NCBI RefSeq assembly: GCF_008728635.1
Contig: NZ_CP044285.1
Location: 4,092,001 to 4,156,000 of the forward strand
Length of the DNA stretch: 64,000 bases
DNA from: Hymenobacter baengnokdamensis
GTDB lineage: Bacteria > Bacteroidota > Bacteroidia > Cytophagales > Hymenobacteraceae
Reading direction: 5' to 3'
Shown here: in pieces, positions 13,356 to 40,511 of the stretch
Layout: the number at the start of each line of letters is the position of its first letter
How positions within the stretch are numbered: position 1 is the first letter of the stretch
Made by a program: the position numbers and the translations under genes
Notes under the pieces: model-generated
Told to the model about the DNA's origin: nothing
Databases searched by the model: none
Seen by the model: the letters and a program-made list of their open reading frames with translations, nothing else

Positions 13356-16300
13356 ATGAAACAAAAGCTACTTCTGCCCGTGCTGCTGCTACTGGCGCTG
13401 CTGCGGCCGCTGGCTGGCCGCGCCCAGGCGCCTGCCTGGCAAAGCGCCGTCAGTACCTCGGGCGCTACCGTGAATGCGGTGGCTGTTAACGCCGCCGGCG
13501 ATGCCTTCATCACCGGCTACTACTCGGGCTCAGCCACCTTCGGGACTACCACGCTTACCAGCGCGGGCCGCACCGATATATTCGTGGCTAAGTATAGTAC
13601 CAGCACCAGCTCCTTTGCCTGGGCCGCCAGCGGTGGTGGCACCGACGATGACCAGGGCAACGGCATTGCCGTGAACGGTAGCACGGTGTATATAACGGGC
13701 CAGTTTACGTCCGGTACCTCGACCACCATCAGCGGCACTCCGCTGGCGGGCACTGGCACCACTAACCTAGACATATTCGTGGCCAAGTACGTGGATAATG
13801 GCACCACCTTCACCGCCCGCGGGGCTATCAGCGAGGGTAATACCGGCACCGACAAGGGTACCGCTATTGCCGTAAATGGCAGCACCGTGTACATAACGGG
13901 CCAGTTTCTTATCGCCGCTAGCGGCACAGTCAGCATTAGTGGTACAACATTAACGGGTAATGGCAGCACGGATTTCTTTCTAGCCCGCTACACTGACCCC
14001 GGCTCAGCTACGAACGGCTTCACCAATGGCGGAGCCGTGAGCGGCGGCGGCTCGATTGCCGACGCGGGCAACGCCGTTGCGGTAAACGGCACGAAAGTGT
14101 ACGTAGCAGGCAAGTATAATTCTAACAGCACAACTCCGGTCGTCATCGCTGGCACCACGCTGCCGTCCGGCTCCGGCACCAATAGCCAGGATTTCTTCGT
14201 GGCCAAGTATACTGACAACGGCTCGGGCTTTACGGGCGGTGGGGCCGTGCGCGGCGGCAGTACAATGTCGGACAATGCCTATGGTATTGCCGTAAACGGC
14301 ACCAACGTGTATGTGACGGGTGTTTTTGCTTCCGGCTCTTCGGCCAGCATCAGCGGCACGTCGCTGGCAGGAGCGGGTGGCGTAGATATGTTTGTGGCCA
14401 AATATATCGATAATGGTTCGGGGCTAACTAATGGTGGCGCCCTGAGTGGTGGCGGCAGCGGCGACGACTTTGATGGTCAGGGAGGTATTGCCGTGAACAA
14501 CGGGACTATAGTAGCAACGGGCAGTTTCGTTGCCGGCACCTCGGCTGTTATCAGTGGTACCACGCTGTCGGGCTCGGGTTCGGGTAACAATGACGTGTTT
14601 GTAGCCAAGTATACCGATAGCGGTTCGGGGCTGGCGAATAGCGGGGCCGTGAGTGGCGGTGGCAGTGACCTCGATAGCGGCTTTGGCATTGCCATTAGCG
14701 GCGGCCAGGCTATGGTAGGGGGCGTGATGGTTGCACCGGCCACCTTTGGCAGCACCACGCTGAGCAACGGAGTCGGGTTTATCGGCCAGGTGAGCGTACT
14801 TCCGCCGACTCTCACCAGCCTCAACCCTACCTCCGGGCCGATTGGCACGTCGGTGACTTTGACCGGCACCAACTTTACCGGGGCTACCGGCGTGAGCTTT
14901 AACGGCACGGCGGCCATCACTTTCAGCGTGACGAACGCGACGACGGCCACGGCCACGGTGCCCACCGGTGCTACCACCGGCAACGTCACTATCACGACGG
15001 GCGGGGGCACCAGCAACGGCGTCACCTTCACCGTGAATACCCCGGCTACCGTGACGACGACGGCGGCTGCCAGCATCACCACCACCAGCGCCGTGCTCGG
15101 CGGCAACGTGACCAGCGACGGCGGCGCGACCGTGACGGACCGGGGCGTGGTGTACAGCACCACCAACACCACGCCCACGACGAGCGACACGAAAGTGGCG
15201 AACGGCTCGGGTACGGGGACGTTCTCGGCCACCATCTCAGGCCTGACGCCGGGCACCACTTACTACGTGCGAGCCTACGCTGTCAATAGCACAGGCACGA
15301 GCTACGGCACCACAAGCAGCTTCACGACTACGCCCAACGCCCCGGTAGTTACCGCGCCAGCCAACGGGGGCTTCTCCACCACCACTACGCCCACCTACTC
15401 GGGCACTTCACAAGTTAACTCAACGGTAACGGTATACGTGGACGGCTCCAGCATCGGCACCACCACGGCCTCGGCCGGCGGCAACTTCAGCTTCACCCAG
15501 CCCACGGCCCTGGCCCAGGGCGCGCACACGGTGCGGGCTACCGCTACGGTAAACGCCTCGACGAGTGCCAACTCCAACACCAACACCTTCACCGTTGATA
15601 CGGTGCCGCCCACGGTGGCCATCAGCAGCACGGCCGGCGCCAGCGGCGGCACCACGGGCACTTCACCCATTCCCGTCACTGTCACCTTTTCGGAGAACGT
15701 AACCGGCTTCGTAGCCGGCGACGTGACCGTGAGCAACGGCTCGGTTGGCACCGTTAGTGGCTCGGGCGCCACTTATACCTTCAACGTGACGCCCACCGCG
15801 GCCGGCCCGGTAACGGTGAACGTGCCCGCCAACGTGGCCCAGGACCAAGCAGGCAACGGCAACACGGCTGCCCCCCAGTTCAGCATTACGTACACGCAGC
15901 CGGTAACGGCAGCGCCGGTGGTGAGCAGCCCGGCCAATGGCAGCTACGCCACCACTACTACTCCCACCTATGGCGGCACGGCCGCGGCTAACTCGACGGT
16001 AACAGTGTACGTGGACGGCTCCAGCATCGGCACCACCACGGCCTCGGCCGGCGGCAGCTTCAGCTTCACCCAGCCCACGGCCCTGGCCCAGGGCGCGCAC
16101 ACGGTGCGGGCTACGGCCCAAACCAGCGGCTCGGCCGTGAGCCCCAACTCGTCTACCATCACCTTCACCGTCGACTCGGTGCCCCCGACCGTGGCCATCA
16201 GCTCTGCGGCCGGTGCCAGTGGCAGCAGCACCACGACCTCGCCCATTCCCGTCACCGTCACCTTTTCGGAGGCCGTAACGGGCTTCTCGGCCGCGGGCGT

Positions 16301-19300
16301 GACCGTGAGCAACGGCTCGGTTGGCACCGTTAGTGGCTCGGGCGCCACTTATACCTTCAACGTGACGCCCACCGCGGCCGGCCCGGTAACGGTGAACGTG
16401 CCCGCCAACGTGGCCCAGGACCAGGCCGGCAACGGCAACACCGCCGCCCCCCAGTTCAGCATTACGTATAACCTGCCTACTACCACGGTGGCCTCGGTGA
16501 CGCGCAGCCTTAACTCGCCCTCACCCACGGCCATGACCCAGGTAAGCTACCAGGTAGTATTCGCGGCCAGCGTAACGGGAGTAACGACTTCCAATTTCTC
16601 GGTCACGAATGGGGGCAGCGTTAGTGGTACTTCGGTTAGCAGCGTGAGCGGCTCGGGCACTACCTACACGGTGGTAGTAAACACTGGCATCGGCGACGGC
16701 ACGCTGCGCCTGAACGTAGCAAATACCACGGGCATTACGCCCACGGTTTCGAACGTGCCCTACACCAGTGGAGAGAGTTTCACCATCACTAAGAGCTTCG
16801 CCGCTGCCCCACAGCTGACGATTGTCGGCACGGGCGGCACGGGCTCCGACGTAACGGCCTTCGTGGACGTGGTGCAGGTACTCAGCAGCGGCTCGCCGTT
16901 TGCCAATGCCCTGCAAAACCCCAGCTTCGAAACCCACGACGCATTAGCCAACGGCAACTACGGCTACAACCCGACCGGTGCCAGCTGGACGTTCAATGCC
17001 CAGTCGGGCATTGCCAATGCGGGCAGTGCCTTTACGCCGACTACCCCCATACCGAATGGCATTGCCGTGGCTTTTGTGCAAAGCACCGGCAGCGGCCAGA
17101 TGCAGCAAAACGGCCAGCTGCAGCAAAACCTGGCTCTGCCTACCGGCAATAGCTACCAGGTGAGCTTCCAGACTGCCCAGCGCGTGTGCTGCACCACGGT
17201 AGACCAGGCACTGAACGTATTCCTGAACGGCGTGTTCATCGGCACCATTCAGCCGAGCAGCAGCGGCTATTCCACCTTCACCTCGGCTACCTTCTCCGTG
17301 ACGGCCTCGGCCCTGACCGCCAGCATCAGCAGCACGGCCGGCGCCAGCGGCGGCACCACGGGTACTTCGCCCATTCCCGTCACTGTCACCTTCTCGCAGA
17401 GCGTAACAGGCTTCTCGGTGGCGGGCGTGACGGTGAGCAACGGCTCGGTTTCAGGCTTCGCGGGCTCGGGCACCACCTACACGTTTAACGTAACACCTTC
17501 GGCTAACGGCCTGGTGACAGTAAACGTGCCGGCCGGAGCAGCCACCGATGCCAACAATACCCCTAACACGGCTGCCCCCCAGTTCAGCATTACGTACACG
17601 CAGCCGGTGACGGCAGCGCCGGTGGTGAGCAGCCCGGCCAATGGCAGCTACGCCACCACTACGACCCCCACCTATGGCGGCACGGCCGCGGCTAACTCGA
17701 CGGTAACAGTGTACGTGGACGGCTCCAGCATCGGCACCACCACGGCCTCGGCCGGCGGCAGCTTCAGCTTCACCCAGCCCACGGCCCTGGCCCAGGGCGC
17801 GCACACGGTGCGGGCTACGGCCCAAACCAGCGGCTCGGCCGTGAGCCCCAACTCGTCTACCATCACCTTCACCGTCGACTCGGTGCCCCCGACCGTGGCC
17901 ATCAGCTCCGCGGCCGGCAATCCGACGACGACCTCGCCCATTCCCGTCACCGTCACCTTCTCGGAGGCCGTAACGGGCTTCTCGGCCGCGGGCGTGACGG
18001 TGAGCAACGGCTCGGTTGGCACCGTTAGTGGCTCGGGCGCCACTTATACCTTCAACGTGACGCCCACCGCGGCCGGCCCGGTAACGGTGAACGTGCCCGC
18101 CAACGTAGCCCAGGACCAGGCCGGCAACGGCAACACCGCCGCCCCCCAGTTCAGCATTACGTATGCGCCCATTACGTTCACTACCTGGACGGGTAACGTC
18201 AGTGCCGACTGGTATACCGCAGGCAACTGGACGGCTGGTGTGCCCACCACCACACTCGATGCCATTATCCCGACCGGAACACCCCGGTATCCACTGATTG
18301 CAGCGGGCACGGCTTCGGCTAAAAACCTGACCATTAATAGCGGAGCCAGCTTCACCCAGACCGGCGGCACGCTAGACGTTCGCGGCGACCTGACCAACAA
18401 CAGCACCTTCGCTGCCACGGGCGGTACGGTAGCGCTGGGCTCGACTGCCCTGGCCAACATCCTGGGCAGCAGCAACACCCGCTTCTACAACCTGACCATT
18501 GGGGCCAGCGGGGCGCAGTCGAGCACCTCGGCCAGCACCTCGGTGCAGCGCCTGCTCACGCTCAACGGCAACTTCGCTACCAACGGCAACCCGCTCACGC
18601 TGCTTTCTTCGGCCAGCGGCGATGCCCTAGTGGTAAATAATAACGGGGTAGTAACGGGCACGGCTACCGTGCAGCGCTACATCGACCCCAGCCTGAACCC
18701 AGGCCTGGGCTACCGTCACTATTCAGCGCCAGTGAGCAATACCACGGTGGCTGACCTGACGACCAGCGGCTTTACGCCCGTGGTAAACCCGACCTACAAC
18801 ACGTCGGCTACGCCTACGCTGGAGCGGCCTTTCCCCACGGTATATGGCTACGACCAGAGCCGACTCTCGCTCACCAACAGCTCGGCGCTCTTCGACAAGG
18901 GCTTCTTCTCGCCCAATGCCCTGAGCGACCCGCTCGCGGTGGGGCAGGGCTACACGGTCAATATTGGCGCGTCGGAGCTGGTGGACTTTATGGGTACGCT
19001 CAACAACGGCAACCTGACGCTGAACCTGGCCAGCAACCGCAGCACCTACCCCAACGATGGCGGTTGGCAGCTGCTAGGTAACCCCTACCCCTCGCCGCTC
19101 GACTACAGCCTGGTGGCCCCCGCCGACCGCCCGGGCCTTGATGCCGCCATCTATGTATTCAGCAGCACTGCCCAGTACCAGGGTCAGTACCGCAGCTACG
19201 TTAATGGCATCGGTGGCAACCCTGTGCTGCCCTCGGGCCAGGGCTTCTTTACGCGGGTAAGCAGCGGCCAGACCAGCGGCTCGCTCACTTTCCGTAATAG

Positions 19301-20054
19301 CCAGCGCCTGACTTCGCCCAACGGCACTACGTTCCAGCGCACTGCCGAAACCCGGCCCTTGGTGCAGCTCACCCTGAAGGGCACGAGCGGCAATGCCACG
19401 GACGATGCCTACGTGTATTTCCAGAACGGCGCTACCGATGGCTTCGACGCGCAGTATGATGCCGTGAAGCTGCCCAACACCTCCGGGCTGAATCTCTCGA
19501 CCAGCATCACTGGCCAGCAGCTGGCTATTGATGGCCGCGCCGAGTTGGGTGCCAGCCAGCGCGTAGTACCCCTGGCCGTGGGCGTGCCCGCCGCAGGCAG
19601 CTACACGTTCACGGCCGCCCAGCTGCTGAACCTGACCAACGTGCCGGTGTACCTGCGCGACCTGCAAAGTGGGGCCGTGGTCGACCTGGCCCAGCAGTCG
19701 AGCTACCAGTTTACGGTAACCAACGCCACGGCCCTGATTACCGGCCGCTTCGAGCTGGTATTCTCGCCGCAGCAGGCACTGGCGACGGTGTCGGCCGCCC
19801 TGGCCCAGCAAGTTGCCTTGTACCCGAACCCGGCTAAAAAGCAGGCGTTCGTGGAGCTGCCCGTTAGCCTCGGCCGCCAGGCCGTAACGGCCACGCTGCT
19901 CGACGCCGTAGGCCGCGAAGCGCGCACGGTAGTGCTGCCCGCTCAGGGTGCTGCTCCCCATCAGCTCGACCTGACGGAACTGCCTACCGGCATCTATATG
20001 CTACGCCTAAGCACCAGTGCTGGCGTGGTAGTGAAGAAACTCGTGGTAGAATAA
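13356..20054 (+). CDS. Giant T9SS-exported surface protein with propeller, Ig-like and lectin-like modules
   Basis: A 2232-residue secreted protein. A signal peptide (residues 1-25) is followed by seven repeats built on VNGSTVYITGQF...DIFVAKY (about 30-485), which fit a seven-bladed SBBP-type beta-propeller. Then come an IPT/TIG domain (SLNPTSGPIGTSVTLTG, about 488-565), a fibronectin-like segment (to 660), Ig-like module pairs (about 662-1039, 1319-1410 and 1411-1604), and a lectin-like segment with NPSFETHD (about 1145-1318). A WTGNVSADWYTAGNW segment follows, and last a type A T9SS sorting domain (about 2149-2232; LYPNPAKKQAF, ending VKKLVVE). Modules are nearly identical at the DNA level. 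Probably a cell-surface or released adhesin-like protein; the ligand is unknown. Confidence 0.93.
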   Translation: MKQKLLLPVLLLLALLRPLAGRAQAPAWQSAVSTSGATVNAVAVNAAGDAFITGYYSGSATFGTTTLTSAGRTDIFVAKYSTSTSSFAWAASGGGTDDDQGNGIAVNGSTVYITGQFTSGTSTTISGTPLAGTGTTNLDIFVAKYVDNGTTFTARGAISEGNTGTDKGTAIAVNGSTVYITGQFLIAASGTVSISGTTLTGNGSTDFFLARYTDPGSATNGFTNGGAVSGGGSIADAGNAVAVNGTKVYVAGKYNSNSTTPVVIAGTTLPSGSGTNSQDFFVAKYTDNGSGFTGGGAVRGGSTMSDNAYGIAVNGTNVYVTGVFASGSSASISGTSLAGAGGVDMFVAKYIDNGSGLTNGGALSGGGSGDDFDGQGGIAVNNGTIVATGSFVAGTSAVISGTTLSGSGSGNNDVFVAKYTDSGSGLANSGAVSGGGSDLDSGFGIAISGGQAMVGGVMVAPATFGSTTLSNGVGFIGQVSVLPPTLTSLNPTSGPIGTSVTLTGTNFTGATGVSFNGTAAITFSVTNATTATATVPTGATTGNVTITTGGGTSNGVTFTVNTPATVTTTAAASITTTSAVLGGNVTSDGGATVTDRGVVYSTTNTTPTTSDTKVANGSGTGTFSATISGLTPGTTYYVRAYAVNSTGTSYGTTSSFTTTPNAPVVTAPANGGFSTTTTPTYSGTSQVNSTVTVYVDGSSIGTTTASAGGNFSFTQPTALAQGAHTVRATATVNASTSANSNTNTFTVDTVPPTVAISSTAGASGGTTGTSPIPVTVTFSENVTGFVAGDVTVSNGSVGTVSGSGATYTFNVTPTAAGPVTVNVPANVAQDQAGNGNTAAPQFSITYTQPVTAAPVVSSPANGSYATTTTPTYGGTAAANSTVTVYVDGSSIGTTTASAGGSFSFTQPTALAQGAHTVRATAQTSGSAVSPNSSTITFTVDSVPPTVAISSAAGASGSSTTTSPIPVTVTFSEAVTGFSAAGVTVSNGSVGTVSGSGATYTFNVTPTAAGPVTVNVPANVAQDQAGNGNTAAPQFSITYNLPTTTVASVTRSLNSPSPTAMTQVSYQVVFAASVTGVTTSNFSVTNGGSVSGTSVSSVSGSGTTYTVVVNTGIGDGTLRLNVANTTGITPTVSNVPYTSGESFTITKSFAAAPQLTIVGTGGTGSDVTAFVDVVQVLSSGSPFANALQNPSFETHDALANGNYGYNPTGASWTFNAQSGIANAGSAFTPTTPIPNGIAVAFVQSTGSGQMQQNGQLQQNLALPTGNSYQVSFQTAQRVCCTTVDQALNVFLNGVFIGTIQPSSSGYSTFTSATFSVTASALTASISSTAGASGGTTGTSPIPVTVTFSQSVTGFSVAGVTVSNGSVSGFAGSGTTYTFNVTPSANGLVTVNVPAGAATDANNTPNTAAPQFSITYTQPVTAAPVVSSPANGSYATTTTPTYGGTAAANSTVTVYVDGSSIGTTTASAGGSFSFTQPTALAQGAHTVRATAQTSGSAVSPNSSTITFTVDSVPPTVAISSAAGNPTTTSPIPVTVTFSEAVTGFSAAGVTVSNGSVGTVSGSGATYTFNVTPTAAGPVTVNVPANVAQDQAGNGNTAAPQFSITYAPITFTTWTGNVSADWYTAGNWTAGVPTTTLDAIIPTGTPRYPLIAAGTASAKNLTINSGASFTQTGGTLDVRGDLTNNSTFAATGGTVALGSTALANILGSSNTRFYNLTIGASGAQSSTSASTSVQRLLTLNGNFATNGNPLTLLSSASGDALVVNNNGVVTGTATVQRYIDPSLNPGLGYRHYSAPVSNTTVADLTTSGFTPVVNPTYNTSATPTLERPFPTVYGYDQSRLSLTNSSALFDKGFFSPNALSDPLAVGQGYTVNIGASELVDFMGTLNNGNLTLNLASNRSTYPNDGGWQLLGNPYPSPLDYSLVAPADRPGLDAAIYVFSSTAQYQGQYRSYVNGIGGNPVLPSGQGFFTRVSSGQTSGSLTFRNSQRLTSPNGTTFQRTAETRPLVQLTLKGTSGNATDDAYVYFQNGATDGFDAQYDAVKLPNTSGLNLSTSITGQQLAIDGRAELGASQRVVPLAVGVPAAGSYTFTAAQLLNLTNVPVYLRDLQSGAVVDLAQQSSYQFTVTNATALITGRFELVFSPQQALATVSAALAQQVALYPNPAKKQAFVELPVSLGRQAVTATLLDAVGREARTVVLPAQGAAPHQLDLTELPTGIYMLRLSTSAGVVVKKLVVE
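15890..18165 (+). repeat. Nearly identical direct DNA repeats inside the giant surface protein gene
   Basis: A stretch at about 15890-16470 recurs at about 17585-18165 with only scattered differences and a short deletion (codons for GASGSS reduced to GN). Part of it also matches an earlier copy at about 15400-15890. Each unit encodes an Ig-like pair beginning APVVSSPANGSYATTTTP. The near-identity points to recent duplication or gene conversion. Confidence 0.85.
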
Positions 20055-22227: not shown

Positions 22228-22289
22228 ATTACTTGACACTCAACGGGCGGCTTCTCTAACGAGGAGCCGCCCGTTGAGTGTCAAGTAAT
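22228..22289. terminator. Long perfect hairpin between pruA and the sulfate assimilation operon
   Basis: Arms 22228-22252 and 22265-22289 are 25-base perfect reverse complements (outer end ATTACTTGACACTC) with a 12-base loop. It probably insulates pruA from the downstream operon; no long T-run follows, so a dispersed repeat is an alternative. Confidence 0.7.
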
Positions 22290-22309
22290 TAGCTATTTAT
22301 TTTTGTTCG

Positions 22310-22342
22310 TTTGGAATTTTCAAAATTCCTATTATACCTTTG
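22310..22342 (+). promoter_or_regulatory. Bacteroidota-type promoter of the sulfate assimilation operon
   Basis: TTTG at 22310-22313 and TACCTTTG at 22335-22342 match the -33 and -7 elements of the Bacteroidota primary sigma factor, spaced 21 bases. Transcription would begin just before the riboswitch. Confidence 0.75.
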
Positions 22343-22369
22343 CGCCATCAATTCCTCTTGCCAGAAGGA

Positions 22370-22487
22370 TTGTTTTTATACAGAGGCGTGGAGAGATAGG
22401 CTCGACGAACCGCCGGCAACCATTGGGCATTCCCAAACGGTGCCAACCGAAGGTCAGCGCAGCTAAGCGCTGACGATATAAAAACAA
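22370..22487 (+). promoter_or_regulatory. SAM-I-type (S-box) riboswitch
   Basis: An 11-bp outer helix pairs TTGTTTTTATA (22370-22380) with TATAAAAACAA (22477-22487). Inside are the S-box landmarks in order: GAGGCGTGGAGAGAT, GACGAACCGCCGGCAACC, a GGTGCCAACC segment, and a final GTCAGCGC/GCGCTGAC stem (22453-22474). SAM-I riboswitches bind S-adenosylmethionine and switch off sulfur assimilation genes. Its place between the promoter and the cysH operon fits. The expression platform is not obvious: the next hairpin overlapping P1 (AAGTTG with CAACTT, 22486-22513) is short. Confidence 0.88.
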
Positions 22488-22548
22488 GTTGCCGTGTGCT
22501 GCTCTAACAACTTCCCCTCTACGACCACCTCACTTGCTGCTTTACAGC

Positions 22549-22620
22549 ATGGGTGTTGTTGTATGTGCCGCCCCGCCGGAATGCCGATGCGGGCTATGCG
22601 GAGCTGTTAAGGCCACTTAG
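22549..22620 (+). CDS. Cys-rich 23-residue upstream ORF (possible leader peptide)
   Basis: Between the SAM riboswitch and cysH an ATG opens a 23-codon frame ending in TAG at 22618-22620. Its product has four cysteines (residues 6, 12, 14, 17), including ECRCGLCG. Four Cys in 23 residues immediately before Cys-biosynthetic genes is what a cysteine-sensing translational leader would look like. The stop codon lies in the loop of a hairpin GGCCAC/GTGGCC (22611-22627), and a 12-base palindrome AGCCGGCCGGCT follows (about 22630-22641). An in-frame TTG at 22534 is an alternative start. Whether it is translated is not known. Confidence 0.5.
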   Translation: MGVVVCAAPPECRCGLCGAVKAT

Positions 22621-22764
22621 CGTGGCCACAGCCGGCCGGCTATCTCACCATTCGGGTCATTAACGCACTCCCGGGCCTTGCTATGCCTGGCCGGAGCGCC
22701 CCGTTGTGCCGGCCTCGTTTTTTTCTGCGATTTCCATCGCGAAAATCCCCTCCCCTTTTACTTT

Positions 22765-23523
22765 ATGGATGCTATTCTCCAGGCCCGGGTCGATGACCTG
22801 CGCCGGTACCTGCCCGAGCACTCGGTACCCGAAACGCTGGCCCTGCTGGCCGACCACTTTCCCGGCCGGGTGTCGTTTTCGACGTCTTTTGGCCTGGAAG
22901 ACCAGCTAATCAGCCACTTTATTTTCGAGCACGAGTTGCCCATCCGGGTATTTACCCTCGATACCGGCCGCAACTTTCAGGAAACCTACTCTACCTGGAA
23001 CAAGACCCTGCAGCGCTACGGCCAGCCCATTGAAGTAGTTGCGTCACAGGCCGCTAGCCTCGAAAAGATGCTGACCCGGAAAGGGCCCAACAGCTTCTAC
23101 GAAAGCATCGCAAACCGTCAGGAATGCTGCCACATTCGCAAGGTGGAGCCGCTGGCCCGCGCTCTGGCCGGCCAGCAGGTGTGGATAACGGGCATCCGCG
23201 CCGAGCAGTCGGCCAACCGCCAGCATATGCACCGCGCCGAGTGGGACGCCGGCCACCAGCTCCTGAAAGTACACCCGCTGTTCGACTGGACCTGGGAGCA
23301 GGCCTGGAGCTTTGCGCAGGCCCACGGCATTCCGGTTAATCCGCTGCACCAGCAGGGCTTTGTGAGCATTGGCTGCGCGCCCTGCACCCGCGCCATTGCG
23401 CCGGGCGAAGACTTCCGGGCCGGCCGCTGGTGGTGGGAAAACGCCGACGCCAAGGAGTGCGGCCTGCACCATACGCTCGGGCACCAGGGCCTCGACCCGG
23501 TAGTGGAGCGCCTACCTGGCTAG
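22765..23523 (+). CDS. cysH: Adenylylsulfate (APS) reductase, [4Fe-4S] type
   Basis: This enzyme reduces APS to sulfite using thioredoxin. The 252-residue protein has the PP-loop-like start FSTSFGLEDQLI, the CC pair in NRQECCHIRK, the CxxC in IGCAPCTRA, and the C-terminal KECGLH catalytic Cys. The CC...CxxC set binds an iron-sulfur cluster and marks reductases acting on APS rather than PAPS. This agrees with the absence of an APS kinase (cysC) in the operon. The start is ATG 22765 (MDAILQARV); the longer frame upstream lacks family similarity. First structural gene of the operon, under the SAM riboswitch. Confidence 0.94.
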   Translation: MDAILQARVDDLRRYLPEHSVPETLALLADHFPGRVSFSTSFGLEDQLISHFIFEHELPIRVFTLDTGRNFQETYSTWNKTLQRYGQPIEVVASQAASLEKMLTRKGPNSFYESIANRQECCHIRKVEPLARALAGQQVWITGIRAEQSANRQHMHRAEWDAGHQLLKVHPLFDWTWEQAWSFAQAHGIPVNPLHQQGFVSIGCAPCTRAIAPGEDFRAGRWWWENADAKECGLHHTLGHQGLDPVVERLPG

Positions 23524-23625: not shown

Positions 23626-24522
23626 ATGGATTACCTAGACAGGCTCGAAGCCGAAGCTATTCATATTCTGCGCGAAGTAGCCGGCCAGTTTGAGCGGCCC
23701 GCGCTGCTTTTTTCGGGGGGCAAAGACTCGATTGCCCTCACACGGCTGGCCGAAAAGGCTTTTCGGCCCGGCAAGTTCCCGTTTCCGCTGGTGCACATCG
23801 ACACGGGCCACAACTTTCCGGAAATCCTCGATTTTCGGGATGAGCTGGCGGCCACCCTGGGCGAAAAGCTGCTGGTGCGCAAGGTAGCAGACACCATTCG
23901 GGAGCGCGGCCTGCGGGAGCCGGGCGGTAAATACCCCAGCCGCAACGCCTTGCAAACATATACTTTATTAGATGTTATCGAAGAGTTCGGGTTTGATGCC
24001 TGCATCGGCGGGGCGCGGCGCGACGAGGAAAAGGCCCGCGCCAAGGAGCGGATTTTCTCGGTGCGCGACGAGTTTGGACAGTGGGACCCGCGCCGCCAGC
24101 GCCCCGAGCTGTGGAACATCTACAACGGGCGCATCCAGAAGGGCGAAAACGTGCGCGTATTCCCTATTTCCAACTGGACCGAGCTGGACGTTTGGAACTA
24201 CATCCAGCGCGAAAACATCAGTCTGCCAGCCATTTACTTCTCGCACGAGCGCGAGTGCGTGGTGCTGCCCAGCGGCCAGCTGCTCGGCCTGAGCGAGCAC
24301 CTCAACCTCGACGATACCGACGAGATAGTGAGCCGGCGCGTACGCTTCCGCACCGTGGGCGACTCGACCTGCACCGCCGCCGTGGAAAGCGACGCGGTCA
24401 CCATCGACGACATTATTCAGGACCTGCTGCTGGCCAAAGTGAGCGAGCGCGGCGCCACGCGCCTCGATGACAACCTCTCGGAAACAGGTATGGAGGACCG
24501 CAAGCGCAACGGGTATTTTTAA
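23626..24522 (+). CDS. cysD: Sulfate adenylyltransferase subunit 2
   Basis: CysD is the catalytic ATP sulfurylase subunit that forms APS from sulfate and ATP, driven by GTP hydrolysis in CysN. The 298-residue product has the PP-loop LFSGGKDSIAL (SGGKDS about residues 30-35), the GGARRDEEKARAKER segment, and the C-terminal DRKRNGYF, all typical. Length is as expected. It lies 102 bases after cysH, with a short tandem repeat in the gap, and precedes cysN. Confidence 0.97.
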   Translation: MDYLDRLEAEAIHILREVAGQFERPALLFSGGKDSIALTRLAEKAFRPGKFPFPLVHIDTGHNFPEILDFRDELAATLGEKLLVRKVADTIRERGLREPGGKYPSRNALQTYTLLDVIEEFGFDACIGGARRDEEKARAKERIFSVRDEFGQWDPRRQRPELWNIYNGRIQKGENVRVFPISNWTELDVWNYIQRENISLPAIYFSHERECVVLPSGQLLGLSEHLNLDDTDEIVSRRVRFRTVGDSTCTAAVESDAVTIDDIIQDLLLAKVSERGATRLDDNLSETGMEDRKRNGYF

Positions 24523-24543: not shown

Positions 24544-24650
24544 GAATGTGAAAGATATGACCAAGTAAGCCATGGGTCTTTCCCCGGCACCGGCTTCGTT
24601 TTTCAACTTTCTCAAATACCCATTTTCACACTTTCACATCTTTCACATTC
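24544..24650. repeat. 13-bp inverted repeat in the cysD-cysN gap
   Basis: GAATGTGAAAGAT (24544-24556) is exactly complementary to ATCTTTCACATTC (24638-24650). The right arm lies in a run of similar TTTCACA units. The arms are far apart (81 bases), and the gap is unusually long (142 bases) for two subunits of one enzyme. Confidence 0.6.
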
Positions 24651-24664
24651 AGCGCATTACCAAA

Positions 24665-25954
24665 ATGGATATTCTTCGCTTTATCACCTGCGGCAGCGTC
24701 GATGATGGCAAGAGCACGCTCATCGGCCGCCTGCTCTACGACAGCGACTCGGTTTCGCTCGACGTGCTAGCGACGCTCGAAAAGCGCCGCGCCGGCAGCG
24801 GCGACGTCGACCTGGCCCTGCTCACCGACGGCCTCAAGGCCGAGCGCGAGCAAGGCATCACGATTGACGTGGCGCACAAGTACTTCACTACGCCGCGCCG
24901 CAAGTTTATCATCACCGACGCGCCGGGCCACGTGCAGTACACCCGCAACATGGTGACCGGGGCCAGCAACGCCGACCTGGCCATTGTGCTGGTAGATGCC
25001 CGCCAGGGCGTTATTGAGCAAACGCGCCGCCACACGCTGCTGGCTTCGCTGGTAGGCATCCGGCACTTTGTGCTGGCCGTGAACAAGATGGACCTGGTGG
25101 GCTACGAGGAAAGGGTTTTTCGGCAGATTGTGGCCGACTACCAGCTCATTGCCGGGCGCCTGCATTTGCCCGAAGTGGTAGCCATTCCGCTCAGCGCCTT
25201 GCAGGGCGACAACGTGGTGCGGCCTTCCCGACACCTGCCCTGGTACACCGGCCCGAGCCTGCTCGACCACCTGGAGCGCGTGCCGGCCGAAGCCGATGCC
25301 AACCCCCACGAACCGCGCTTTCAGGTGCAGTACGTCATCCGGCCCCAGACCGAGGAGCTGCCCGACTACCGCGCGTACGCCGGCCGCATTCAGAGCGGCC
25401 GCTACCGGGCCGGCGAGCGCGTGCGCATTTTGCCGTCGGGCCTCGAAACGGTGCTCGAAGCCATTGAGCTGAACCAGCAGGAAGTAGCCTCGGCCGAGGC
25501 CCCGCAATCGGTGGTGCTGCGCCTGCGCGACGATGTAGACGTGAGCCGGGGCGATTCTATCGTGCCGCTGAGTGCGCCGCCCGCGCTCACCCGCGAGCTG
25601 GAAGCTACGCTGTGCTGGATGGATGAGCGCCCGCTCAAAGCCGGCCGCAAGCTGCTGATTCAGCACCACGCCGCCGTGGTAAAAGCGGCCGTAACCACCA
25701 TTGTTGACCGCACCAACGTGGCCACTTTCGAGCGCGTAGCCGCCGACGAGGCCCAGCTCAACGATATCGTGCGGGTGCGCCTCAGAACTGCCCGTCCGCT
25801 GGTGGCCGACACCTACCGCGACAACCGGGCCACCGGCGCCTTTATTCTGGTTGAGGAGCAAACCGGCGCGACGCTGGCCGCTGGCCTCATTACGGCTACC
25901 GACCCCGAAGCCTTCGCGGCGCCCGCCGAAAATCCGCTGGCGTTCAGTATTTAA
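24665..25954 (+). CDS. cysN: Sulfate adenylyltransferase subunit 1 (GTPase)
   Basis: CysN is the elongation-factor-like GTPase that powers APS formation by CysD. The 429-residue product has G1 GSVDDGKST (residues 10-18), switch II DAPGH, and G4 NKMD, followed by two beta-barrel domains. It ends soon after these, so there is no fused CysC APS-kinase domain, which agrees with the APS-type CysH. I start at ATG 24665 (MDILRFITCGS). The frame runs upstream to 24572, but that part overlaps the inverted repeat and lacks family character. Confidence 0.97.
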   Translation: MDILRFITCGSVDDGKSTLIGRLLYDSDSVSLDVLATLEKRRAGSGDVDLALLTDGLKAEREQGITIDVAHKYFTTPRRKFIITDAPGHVQYTRNMVTGASNADLAIVLVDARQGVIEQTRRHTLLASLVGIRHFVLAVNKMDLVGYEERVFRQIVADYQLIAGRLHLPEVVAIPLSALQGDNVVRPSRHLPWYTGPSLLDHLERVPAEADANPHEPRFQVQYVIRPQTEELPDYRAYAGRIQSGRYRAGERVRILPSGLETVLEAIELNQQEVASAEAPQSVVLRLRDDVDVSRGDSIVPLSAPPALTRELEATLCWMDERPLKAGRKLLIQHHAAVVKAAVTTIVDRTNVATFERVAADEAQLNDIVRVRLRTARPLVADTYRDNRATGAFILVEEQTGATLAAGLITATDPEAFAAPAENPLAFSI

Positions 25955-25977: not shown

Positions 25978-26775
25978 ATGGCTGATTACTCATCCTTTAT
26001 CCCGCGCCTTACCGTTGTTGGTGCCGGCCCCGGCGACCCCGAGCTGCTTACCCTCAAGGGCGCGCGGGTGCTGGCGCAAGCCGACGTGGTGCTCTACGAT
26101 GCCCTGGCCAACGCCGAGCTGCTGACCCACGCCCGGCCCACCGCCCGGCGCATCTTCGTGGGCAAGCGCCGGGGCTTCAAAGCCCTGGAGCAGGAGGAGA
26201 TTAACGCCCTCATTGTGAGCGAGGCCCGCCGTTACGGACACGTAGTGCGGCTCAAGGGCGGCGACCCGTTTGTGTTTGGCCGGGGCCGCGAGGAAATGCT
26301 GTATGCCGCTGCCCACGGCCTGGCTACGGCCTACGTGCCCGGCATCAGCAGTGCCGTGGCCGCCGCCGGCCACGCGGGCATTCCGGTTACGCACCGTGGC
26401 TTAAGCGAAGGCTTTCAGGTAATTACTGCCACTACGGCTACCGGCAGCCTGGCCCCGGCCCTGGTCGAAGCAGCGCGGGGCCGCCTCACTACCATCATCC
26501 TGATGGGCCTGCACCGGCTGGCCGATATCATGACCCTCTACTCCCAGCAGGGCCAGGCCGATACGCCGGCGGCCGTGGTGCAAAATGGCACACTACCTAC
26601 TGCGCAGGTAATTACGGGCACCGTGGCCACACTGGCAGCCCGCGTAGCCGGGGCGGGCCTGGGCTCTCCGGCCGTTATCGTGATTGGCGCGGTGGCCAGC
26701 CTTGCCCACGGCCAGGCAGCGCCCGCCACCCCGGCCGACTTGCGGCCGCTGCTGGCTTATGCCAGGGTGGCGTAA
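25978..26775 (+). CDS. cobA: Uroporphyrinogen-III C-methyltransferase
   Basis: This SAM-dependent enzyme methylates uroporphyrinogen III twice to give precorrin-2, the first committed step to siroheme. The 265-residue product shows VGAGPGDPELLTLKG near the N-terminus, VRLKGGDPFVFGRG in the middle, and YVPGISSAVAAAG, all diagnostic of the family. It is a stand-alone enzyme; the dehydrogenase activity found in CysG is supplied by the fusion gene at 33554. It follows cysN by 23 bases in the operon and supplies the prosthetic group of CysI. Confidence 0.96.
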   Translation: MADYSSFIPRLTVVGAGPGDPELLTLKGARVLAQADVVLYDALANAELLTHARPTARRIFVGKRRGFKALEQEEINALIVSEARRYGHVVRLKGGDPFVFGRGREEMLYAAAHGLATAYVPGISSAVAAAGHAGIPVTHRGLSEGFQVITATTATGSLAPALVEAARGRLTTIILMGLHRLADIMTLYSQQGQADTPAAVVQNGTLPTAQVITGTVATLAARVAGAGLGSPAVIVIGAVASLAHGQAAPATPADLRPLLAYARVA

Positions 26776-26809
26776 ATCCAATAAATATACTAAATACTAT
26801 ATAATCCCC

Positions 26810-28606
26810 ATGCCTTCGCTCCCTGCGCCGCTTCCCCCCGGCTTTGACGATTCTACCCTGGCTCAGCTGGCCGATGGCCTCAGCGGCTCGCAGCTGCTGT
26901 GGCTTAGCGGCTATTTCTACGGCCGGGCTACGGGCACGCCGGCCGGAGCCGGCACTACGGCAGCTACCGCCGCGCCCGCTCCGGCTGCAGTGGCCCCCAC
27001 GCTCACTATTCTCTACGGCTCGCACACCGGCAATGGCGCCAAGGTGGCCCGCCAGGCCGCCGAAGCCGCCAGGCAGCGCGGCTTGGCGGCCACGGTGCAG
27101 GACATGAACGAGTACGCGCCCCGCAACCTGGCCCGCGAGCAGGTGCTGCTGCTCATTGTGAGCACCCACGGCGAGGGCGACCCGCCCGTGGCTGCCGAAG
27201 AGCTGCACCAGTTTCTGGGCAGCCCGCGCGCGCCCAAGCTACCCGACCTGTGCTACGCCGTGCTGGCGCTGGGCGACAGCAGCTACCTGCACTTTTGCCA
27301 GACCGGCCGGGATTTTGACGAGCGCCTGGCCGCGCTGGGTGCCCGGCGCCTGCTCGACCGCGTGGAGTGCGATGTGGATTATCAGGCCCGCGCCGCCGCC
27401 TGGATTGCCGATGCGCTGGATAAAATTTCGGCGGAATTAACCCCGGTGTCCAGCCCGGCCGCCGTTATCCACACGCCTGAAAATCCGGCCTACACCCGCG
27501 AGCACCCGTGGTCGGCGCCGGTGCTGGCCAGCATTCAGCTTAATGGCCGCGGCTCGACCAAGGAAACCTACCATATGGAGCTCGACCTGGCCAGCTCGGG
27601 CCTGACCTACGAGCCCGGCGATGCCCTGGCCGTGCTGGCTACCAACGAAGACCCACTGGTGGAGGAAGTACTCCGCGCGGCCCGCCTCAGCGATACCGCG
27701 CTGGTGGCCCTCAGCGGCGAAGAGCTGCCACTGGCCGCCGCGCTGGCCAGCCGCCGCGAGCTAAGCGTGCTCACCCGCGACGTGATTGAGCGCTATGCGC
27801 TACTTGCCCCGCACCATGCCGCCCTGCGCGAGCTGGCTACCGATGCCCAGCGCCTCCAGCCCTACCTCTACGGCCGCGACGTGGCCGACCTGCTGAGTGA
27901 GTTCCCGGTTGATAACCTTACCGCTCAGGTGCTGATTGAGACCCTGCGCCCGCTGCCCAGCCGGGCCTACTCCATCGCCAGCAGCCTGCTTGCCCATCCC
28001 GACGAGGTGCATCTGACCGTGGGGGCCGTGCGCTACGAGGCCCACGGCCGCCGTAAGCACGGTGTTTGCTCATCGTATCTGGCCGACCGCATTGCCGTGG
28101 GCGAAACCGCCCGGGTATTTGTGGAGCACAACGAATACTTCAAGCTGCCCACCGACCCGGCTACCGATATCATCATGCTGGGGGCCGGCACCGGCATCGC
28201 GCCTTTCCGGGGCTTTGTGGAAGAGCGGGTGGAGCTGGGCGCCACCGGCCGCAACTGGCTGCTATTCGGCAACCCGCACTTTACCACCGACTTCCTCTAC
28301 CAGACCGAGTGGCTGCAACACCTCAAGCGCGGCGGGCTGGCCCGGCTCGATGTGGCCTTCTCGCGCGACCAGGCGGCTAAAGTGTACGTGCAGGACCGCC
28401 TGCTCGAAAACAGCCGCGAAGTTTTTGGCTGGCTCGAAGGCGGGGCCAAGCTCTACGTCTGCGGCGACAAGGTGCGCCTGGGCAGTGCCGTGCAGGATGC
28501 CCTCACCGAAGTGGTACGCCGCGAGGCCGACCTGCCTCAGGATGAAGCCATTGCCTATGTGCGCAACCTCCGCAAGCAGCGCCGCTACCTCGAAGACGTG
28601 TATTAG
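26810..28606 (+). CDS. cysJ: Sulfite reductase (NADPH) flavoprotein subunit
   Basis: CysJ takes electrons from NADPH and passes them through FAD and FMN to the siroheme subunit CysI. The 598-residue product has an N-terminal helix with LLWLSGYFYG, a flavodoxin domain (TILYGSHTGNGAKVA, about residues 64-210), an FAD-binding region with RAYSIASSL, and the NADPH site IIMLGAGTGIAPFRGF, ending ...YLEDVY as in the family. I start at ATG 26810; an upstream extension of the frame overlaps cobA. It is 34 bases after cobA. Confidence 0.96.
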   Translation: MPSLPAPLPPGFDDSTLAQLADGLSGSQLLWLSGYFYGRATGTPAGAGTTAATAAPAPAAVAPTLTILYGSHTGNGAKVARQAAEAARQRGLAATVQDMNEYAPRNLAREQVLLLIVSTHGEGDPPVAAEELHQFLGSPRAPKLPDLCYAVLALGDSSYLHFCQTGRDFDERLAALGARRLLDRVECDVDYQARAAAWIADALDKISAELTPVSSPAAVIHTPENPAYTREHPWSAPVLASIQLNGRGSTKETYHMELDLASSGLTYEPGDALAVLATNEDPLVEEVLRAARLSDTALVALSGEELPLAAALASRRELSVLTRDVIERYALLAPHHAALRELATDAQRLQPYLYGRDVADLLSEFPVDNLTAQVLIETLRPLPSRAYSIASSLLAHPDEVHLTVGAVRYEAHGRRKHGVCSSYLADRIAVGETARVFVEHNEYFKLPTDPATDIIMLGAGTGIAPFRGFVEERVELGATGRNWLLFGNPHFTTDFLYQTEWLQHLKRGGLARLDVAFSRDQAAKVYVQDRLLENSREVFGWLEGGAKLYVCGDKVRLGSAVQDALTEVVRREADLPQDEAIAYVRNLRKQRRYLEDVY

Positions 28607-35365: not shown

Positions 35366-35377
35366 GGGTTATAAAGT

Positions 35378-35484
35378 TGGCGGCGACCGACTCTCCCACC
35401 GGTGAAGGCAGTACCATAGGCGCACCGGGGCTTAACGACTCTGTTCGGAATGGGAAGAGGTGAACACCCGGGCTAAAGCCACCA
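35378..35484 (-). rRNA. rrf: 5S ribosomal RNA
   Basis: The minus strand carries the 5S core GTTCACCTCTTCCCATTCCG, AACAGAGTCGTTAAG and GGTGGGAGAGTCGGTCGCCG. Its ends TGGTGGC and GCCGCCA pair to close the molecule, giving about 107 nt. Ends are estimated from this stem. Last gene of the minus-strand rRNA operon. Confidence 0.92.
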
Positions 35485-35574
35485 TTGCTGGCGTTGCCTG
35501 TCGGGTTCAGGGACAGGCAGCAATACCGTTGACATAAGGGAAAAGAGAAAGAAGTAGAAAGACTGAGTGGGCCA

Positions 35575-38486
<2,912 letters not shown>

Positions 38487-38579
38487 CTTGCGATTCTCTA
38501 CACTCGACGTGTAGAAGAACTGCTGCTAGTCTGTGACTAACAGCCCGCTTTGTACTTCTCTCTCTTGTTTTCCCTTACG

Positions 38580-38589
38580 TCAAAGAACG
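38580..38589 (-). promoter_or_regulatory. boxA-like antitermination element before 23S
   Basis: Minus-strand CGTTCTTTGA, identical to the copy before 16S (40669-40678) and close to the bacterial boxA core. It is flanked by a TTTATCATC/GATGATAAA hairpin (38590-38612), likely part of the spacer folding. Confidence 0.6.
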
Positions 38590-38685
38590 TTTATCATCCA
38601 CTTGATGATAAATGCGGAATAGCTGAACTGCTTCAGGCTAAACCAATACTATTAAAGCACTTTCTCAATTAGAAAGTGTAGTCAG

Positions 38686-38759
38686 TGGAGGATAACGGAG
38701 TCGAACCGTTGACCCCCTGCGTGCAAGGCAGGTGCTCTAGCCAGCTGAGCTAATCCCCC
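38686..38759 (-). tRNA. tRNA-Ala (TGC anticodon)
   Basis: A 74-nt cloverleaf on the minus strand beginning GGGGGATTAGCTCAG, with anticodon arm CCTGCCTTGCACGCAGG (anticodon TGC) and T-arm GGTTCGACTCC. No CCA is encoded. It lies in the 16S-23S spacer after tRNA-Ile, the common arrangement. Confidence 0.97.
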
Positions 38760-38796
38760 GGAAGTTGGCCTGCAAGCAGAATCCCGCTGCTGCCAG

Positions 38797-38870
38797 TGGG
38801 CCTGCCTGGACTCGAACCAGGGACCTCTACATTATCAGTGTAGCGCTCTAACCACCTGAGCTACAAGCCC
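38797..38870 (-). tRNA. tRNA-Ile (GAT anticodon)
   Basis: A 74-nt cloverleaf on the minus strand starting GGGCTTGTAGCTCAG, with anticodon arm CTACACTGATAATGTAG (anticodon GAT) and T-arm GGTTCGAGTCC. It is in the 16S-23S spacer. Confidence 0.97.
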
Positions 38871-38993
38871 GGGTTCGCTCTGCCCACTTGCGAGGGCAAT
38901 GCAGAATCCGATAAAATCGTTGAATGAAGGAAATAAACAAAATGTGGGGCCAATCGACCCGAAATATACTAAGCCAAAGAGCAAGGCAGCTCC

Positions 38994-40511
<1,518 letters not shown>

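Follow-up and report, generated by a model that had tools for sequence, protein, structure and literature searches.

A Cys-codon leader ORF set against a SAM-I riboswitch upstream of cysH in Hymenobacter: a probable two-signal attenuator

The cysH operon of Hymenobacter baengnokdamensis has a 5' leader that is probably a two-signal attenuator, in which a SAM riboswitch is combined with a short leader ORF carrying Cys codons. Because the riboswitch lies directly against the start of the Cys-rich leader, the operon probably reads two sulfur signals at once. A wider reading, to which we give only slightly better than even chances, is that the riboswitch targets a codon-sensing leader rather than a gene, SAM thereby deciding if a ribosome can begin to gauge Cys-tRNA, that this module has spread over the Hymenobacter sulfur regulon, that the riboswitch layer comes and goes independently in the family, and that the output differs by clade. 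The initial annotation had proposed a Cys-rich leader ORF between the riboswitch and cysH; such an ORF, which would fit dual control by SAM and Cys, is well supported by comparison of related loci. The reading frame chosen at that time did not hold, and the conserved frame is another one, at 22494-22610.

The window, that is, the whole stretch of 64,000 nucleotides analysed, comes from a genome of one contig (4,428,884 bases) in which the SAM riboswitch model has six matches, and the ten closest named relatives, found by way of cysH, are all Hymenobacter. The features on which the argument depends are as follows.

22309-22344, forward strand: promoter-like site, TTTG ... TAtaccTTTG, read from the sequence
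22370-22380, forward strand: 5' strand of helix P1, TTGTTTTTATA, complementary to 22477-22487
22373-22484, forward strand: SAM-I riboswitch aptamer (RF00162), 66.6 bits, gathering score 44.4, E 2.5e-13
22477-22487, forward strand: 3' strand of helix P1, TATAAAAACAA, an A-rich stretch ahead of the leader start, placed by sequence position
22494-22610, forward strand: conserved leader ORF, GTG to TAA, 38 codons, 7 Cys, reading MCCSNNFPSTTTSLAALQHGCCCMCRPAGMPMRAMRSC
22549-22620, forward strand: ORF of the initial annotation in the +1 frame, ATG to TAG, four Cys, reading MGVVVCAAPPECRCGLCGAVKAT
22611-22627, forward strand: hairpin GGCCAC/GTGGCC, seen in the sequence, beginning at the base after the leader stop (TAA, to 22610)
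22665-22697, forward strand: candidate antiterminator hairpin, sharing bases with the terminator, with covariation in 10 sequences
22690-22724, forward strand: candidate intrinsic terminator (hairpin 22690-22713, T-run 22718-22724), read from the sequence
22765-23523, forward strand: cysH, phosphoadenylyl-sulfate reductase type (NF002537.0, 253 bits, cut-off 154)
23626-24522, forward strand: cysD (TIGR02039.1, 401.7 bits)
24572-25954, forward strand: cysN (TIGR02034.1, 516.5 bits)
25978-26775, forward strand: uroporphyrinogen-III C-methyltransferase (TIGR01469.1, 264.6 bits)
26684-28606, forward strand: cysJ (TIGR01931.1, 705.1 bits)

The profile matches bear out the cysteine operon that had been named downstream, with cysH followed by cysD, cysN, uroporphyrinogen-III C-methyltransferase and cysJ; the true start of cysJ is probably later than the mechanical ORF start at 26684, as the profile match begins at residue 57. 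The distance from the riboswitch to the cysH start is 280 nt. The promoter-like site is a candidate read by comparison with the Bacteroidota promoter consensus, and a sigma-70 promoter scan found none. Between this site and an upstream dehydrogenase gene, at 22231-22286, ACTTGACACTCAACGGGCGGC is followed by its complement in a long inverted repeat without mismatches, which looks like the terminator of the dehydrogenase gene. Elsewhere in the window there are an upstream open frame of 2232 codons (13356-20054) and, on the minus strand, a complete rRNA operon (35375-40511), its 16S and 23S genes flanking two tRNA genes.

That a SAM-I riboswitch stands ahead of cysH, as had been claimed, is confirmed by the RF00162 match; by aptamer sequence and structure it belongs to this family, with a covariance model score above gathering, and it is predicted to bind SAM. 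Where the riboswitch is present, the P1 3' strand is just ahead of the leader start; at 63 of 79 genus loci, the first base of ATATAAAA within this strand precedes the start codon by 18 or 19 nt. As a control we took the 30 SAM riboswitches that score best in the genus. Three of them are of the cysH type (L010, L013, L018), and the other 27 have a different P1, CTTATC/GATAAG. A T-run follows within 130 nt at 25 of these 27, in most cases after GCTCTTCTGAC, and the output there is therefore a direct, ordinary terminator. Unlike this control layout, P1 of the cysH-type riboswitch adjoins another neighbour, namely the initiation region of the leader ORF. One of the 27 controls (L016) goes against the contrast, in that it is followed by a GTG frame of 12 codons ending in two Cys codons.

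CysH was found in 81 of the 120 genomes of the genus sample, and 80 upstream regions were counted; the remaining genome (G013), a partial gene match, was read separately and also has the leader. The leader start was taken as the GTG adjoining P1, four loci being set by hand, and this codon is GTG at 79 of the 80 loci and ATG at one. The leader is open with at least three Cys codons at 78 loci, where it is 30-40 codons long except for one leader of 67 codons (G077). Adjacent Cys codons occur in 78 of the 80 leaders and three in succession in 62; at least five Cys are present in 75, and two leaders have only three. A Cys lies within the last two codons in 63 of the 80, and many runs are mid-leader, as in the window, where TGT TGT TGT ATG TGC stands mid-leader and a TGT ahead of the stop. 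The two remaining leaders, at L047 (G072) and L048 (G071), are disrupted, one early stop and one frameshift being seen, and end after nine codons in front of an intact cysH, and are natural leader knock-outs.

The frame 22549-22620 fares differently in the same comparison. A four-Cys open frame with ECRCGLCG does exist there, but its ATG is found in only 49 of the 80 genus cysH upstream regions, where it is always offset by +1 from the conserved leader frame. Of these 49 frames, 26 contain no Cys and 24 end within 11 codons, and ECRCGLCG occurs in two; the frame reads the shared ATGGGTGTTGTTGTATG in the +1 register. Neither the frame nor its Cys codons are kept among the genus loci, and as a Cys-sensing leader it is rejected because it fails the test of conservation in close relatives that the initial annotation had itself set for it. 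The GGCCAC/GTGGCC hairpin and the palindrome (22630-22641) pointed out earlier are present, but the argument that the ORF stops within the hairpin applies to the wrong frame only; the conserved leader stops one base ahead of it.

A leader of this composition might suggest that the ORF is an accident of a UG-rich stretch kept as RNA structure, with no translation and the Cys codons a by-product. When single leaders are shuffled by dinucleotides, 435 of 3900 shuffles have at least as many Cys codons as observed, and at 60 of 78 loci the highest of 20 shuffles did so; shuffles match the count so often because the leader sequence is UG-rich, and a single locus is therefore not far from chance. Moreover, in another genus of the family, g6, the end of the Cys run lies within a predicted hairpin, and three loci exchange the last Cys while the pair is kept. 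Against this, the leader frame is open at 78 of 80 loci, with a stop in the first 29 codons at two loci, compared with 55 and 21 in the other two frames; the Cys runs mix TGT and TGC behind unlike leader bodies, and the distance to the start codon is fixed. We therefore consider an untranslated structure very improbable. The leader frame is also the richest in Cys of the three frames at 73 of 78 loci, and Cys codons in the genus leaders comprise 340 TGT and 118 TGC. Leader bodies vary among the genus loci, and pN/pS over the ten nearest loci is 0.63 in the leader frame against 0.57 and 0.94 in the other two; as this does not set the leader frame apart, pN/pS of the peptide is not counted as support. 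The evidence is the repetition of frame, Cys codons and position across loci and not any one locus; by such comparison the ORF, its frame, its Cys codons, the riboswitch-to-start spacing and their recurrence before other genes appear as kept features, and the leader ORF together with the riboswitch-to-start geometry is well supported.

This recurrence was seen when a 30-base pattern from the 5' part of the riboswitch was searched with up to 2 mismatches in the 120 genus genomes; it matched in 113, and the reversed control gave none. Thirty-eight distinct units before genes other than cysH were read (18 from the pattern search, L018, and 19 hand-picked; L222 repeats L182). All 38 leaders have at least three Cys and 35 have adjacent Cys codons, while their bodies are often unlike those of cysH leaders; unlike bodies sharing Cys runs are the strongest sign in these comparisons that conservation is directed at the Cys codons. 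The genes behind these units, named from ORF starts and, on six, Pfam, encode a RimK/LysX-like ATP-grasp protein, an amino-acid permease, TonB receptors, a carboxymuconolactone decarboxylase-family protein and a DUF6250 protein, and a few are without assignment. The window genome itself has a second unit (L203, C1:1418800-1421999, minus strand) before a RimK/LysX-like ATP-grasp gene, with the leader VRSLLPYPAPLRNLARHSWGCCSCGY.

In the family, CysH was found in 139 of 200 genomes. Those outside the genus number 58 and contain 59 places, of which 40 were read. A Cys-run leader precedes cysH at 38 of these 40 loci (7 in g5, 13 in g6 and 18 in g3), with runs of up to eight Cys in or near the leader end, for example MQTYTNTPAPSIARRGLTTAQATIIPNTARTMQGYCCCCCCMC and MVYSSHIKRMRFCCCSSCCCCC; at the other two loci read (G190 and G197) there is no leader before cysH. 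A short conserved Cys-rich ORF, the mark of an amino-acid leader-peptide attenuator, is thus found at 78 of 80 genus loci and 38 of 40 loci of other genera. Rfam did not find a SAM riboswitch at any of the 13 g6 loci, which are among the 38 with a leader; at most of the other 25 leader loci, riboswitch presence was judged by core motifs only. Within Hymenobacter, one locus (L064, G006) has no riboswitch match and another (L056, G034) has a degenerate riboswitch under the gathering score, and both keep the Cys leader. Because the leader is kept without a riboswitch or with a degenerate one, the riboswitch and Cys layers are separable in evolution. These loci bear on the idea that the riboswitch alone regulates, the leader being merely a coding sequence for translational control in which Cys is not sensed. 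The tight P1-to-start spacing would suit it, but the Cys-run leaders persist in all 13 g6 loci and G006 without the riboswitch, and in G034 with a degenerate one, and the units before other genes likewise end in Cys runs, so we assign this single-input explanation very little probability.

Returning to the two-signal attenuator, we infer leader translation, SAM binding, P1 occlusion, stalling and a terminator switch from this arrangement. In the first layer, the P1 3' strand would cover the A-rich initiation region of the leader (GTG at 22494), and SAM binding should therefore shut leader translation. In the second, at low SAM, the leader would be translated and its Cys codons would tie elongation to Cys-tRNA. 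Shortage of Cys would stall the ribosome on the Cys codons, leaving the downstream RNA permissive and the operon expressed, and smooth release at the leader stop, or no translation at all, would give a closed state with the operon off. This input logic, in which translation plus stalling means on and an untranslated or smoothly released leader means off, would be common to all variants of the output.

The window locus and nine close ones make up clade A. Here the closed state would most likely be formed by the intrinsic terminator at 22690-22724, in competition with the antiterminator hairpin at 22665-22697. A terminator-like element stands before cysH at 9 of 10 clade A loci, compared with 46 of 400 shuffles. 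In the antiterminator, 4 of 11 pairs are changed on both sides across the 10 sequences; its covariation score is attained by none of 500 shuffles and two other measures by 19 and 120 of 500, in a test on related sequences of a structure drawn from those same sequences. Covariation of the clade A terminator hairpin does not go beyond shuffles, and a stricter terminator scan at the window locus found none. The clade A data fit a terminator/antiterminator pair, short of proof. Outside clade A, terminator-like elements are about as frequent as in shuffles (9 of 70 loci; 46 of 400 shuffles), and an intrinsic terminator as the general output is rejected there.

With the inputs SAM and Cys kept, the output might instead be loading of Rho, if an untranslated or released leader exposed C-rich, G-poor RNA that a stalled ribosome shields. 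We regard this as possible, though doubtful. The C and G fractions in the first part of the leader are 0.38/0.20 at 76 genus loci, 0.36/0.15 at 18 g3 loci and 0.27/0.17 at 13 g6 loci, and beyond the leader stop they are 0.34/0.24 (genus) and 0.30/0.11 (g6); there is also a rho gene (628 bits), and the background level of terminators outside clade A is also in its favour. However, in the genus C exceeds G at the cysH start as well (0.35/0.29), so that the leader skew is only partly special, and a Rho site there is beyond recognition by sequence. A translational output is less likely still, again with both inputs kept: a structure before cysH would block its start and be opened by the stalled leader ribosome, as reported for mycobacteria. 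By eye, a hairpin stands about 15-20 nt ahead of the cysH start at many loci, and in g6 a hairpin predicted on 13 sequences is built from the final Cys codons together with the stop codon and the bases that follow it. These hairpins nevertheless leave the cysH start codon uncovered, the g6 hairpin ending some 50 nt before it with 1 of 11 pairs changed on both sides, and when the stalled ribosome was represented by masking its bases, the predicted folds showed no consistent effect among loci. As no consistent switch appeared, this result weighs against the terminator switch too.

Beyond the family, 1 of 20 places in the order has the unit, a riboswitch with six Cys codons before the stop in a genome of another family (G315); the 19 misses, read irrespective of where their operons start, say little. 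Among named genomes, the leader is present at 10 of 22 loci, all ten Hymenobacter, and the other 12 lack a leader within the stretch searched. A phylum-wide search for six consecutive Cys codons matched in 220 of 392 genomes; most of 30 loci read from it are not short ORFs ending in a Cys run, in part because poly-Gln on the opposite strand gives the identical pattern. Two single loci in other Bacteroidota genomes were also seen. In one (L233), 63 nt separate the end of the ORF MFFLSHTCCCCCCC from a gene for cysteinyl-tRNA synthetase (TIGR00435, 427 bits), and in the other (L251), an ORF with nine terminal Cys codons lies 55 nt before a gene that looks like a PhyH-type dioxygenase.

Contiguous Cys codons of leaderless ORFs in M. 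smegmatis, in work by Canestrari from 2020, were reportedly tested and give Cys-responsive attenuation. The Hymenobacter leaders resemble these poly-Cys ORFs in that they precede sulfur genes and carry contiguous Cys codons close to their stop (three in succession in 62 of 80), but the M. smegmatis ORFs are leaderless, whereas the Hymenobacter start lies behind a 112-nt aptamer, about 150 nt past the promoter-like site, and so away from the presumed mRNA 5' end. By this analogy, the Hymenobacter leader may work like the mycobacterial leaderless poly-Cys ORFs, yet it would be no member of that class. A combination of riboswitch and leader is known from mgtA. In Salmonella, mgtL and mgtCBR have proline-codon leaders, short ORFs in a long regulated leader (PMC6460261; PMC3641672); they differ in using proline and other signals, with no known sequence relation.

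In Mycobacterium and Propionibacterium acnes, cys operons have also been described as preceded by leader peptides with Cys codons, and so has cbs in Bifidobacterium (PMC1262725). These are similarly short ORFs with a Cys-codon run near the stop before cysteine genes, and for them no conserved terminator was reported and Rho was raised as a possibility; they differ in belonging to Actinobacteria, and the parts of that article available to us mention neither a riboswitch nor spread over other genes. The uORFC-8-2 motif before cysS has tandem Cys codons in a uORF, for which ribosome-mediated attenuation was inferred (PMC8632094), and differs in its two Cys codons and intrinsic terminator, a riboswitch part being unmentioned in the sections accessible to us. 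Within Bacteroidota, excerpts report clues for leader-peptide attenuation before amino-acid operons of Flavobacterium psychrophilum (PMC9723704) and, for B. thetaiotaomicron, sORFs that resemble leader peptides (PMC7366714). In the open-licence literature, as far as its text was available to us, we found neither a Cys leader following a SAM riboswitch nor any poly-Cys leader from Bacteroidota described.

If the proposal is true, this leader would unite two inputs in a single RNA gate, in which an aptamer for the downstream product (SAM) controls the sensing of an intermediate (Cys) by the ribosome. It would carry poly-Cys leaders, described for Actinobacteria in the sources available to us, into Bacteroidota. 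The natural variants, in which the riboswitch is lost, the aptamer is degenerate, the leader is broken or other genes stand behind it, make the logic testable. In addition, the riboswitch together with the Cys leader would provide a signature for finding the sulfur regulon.
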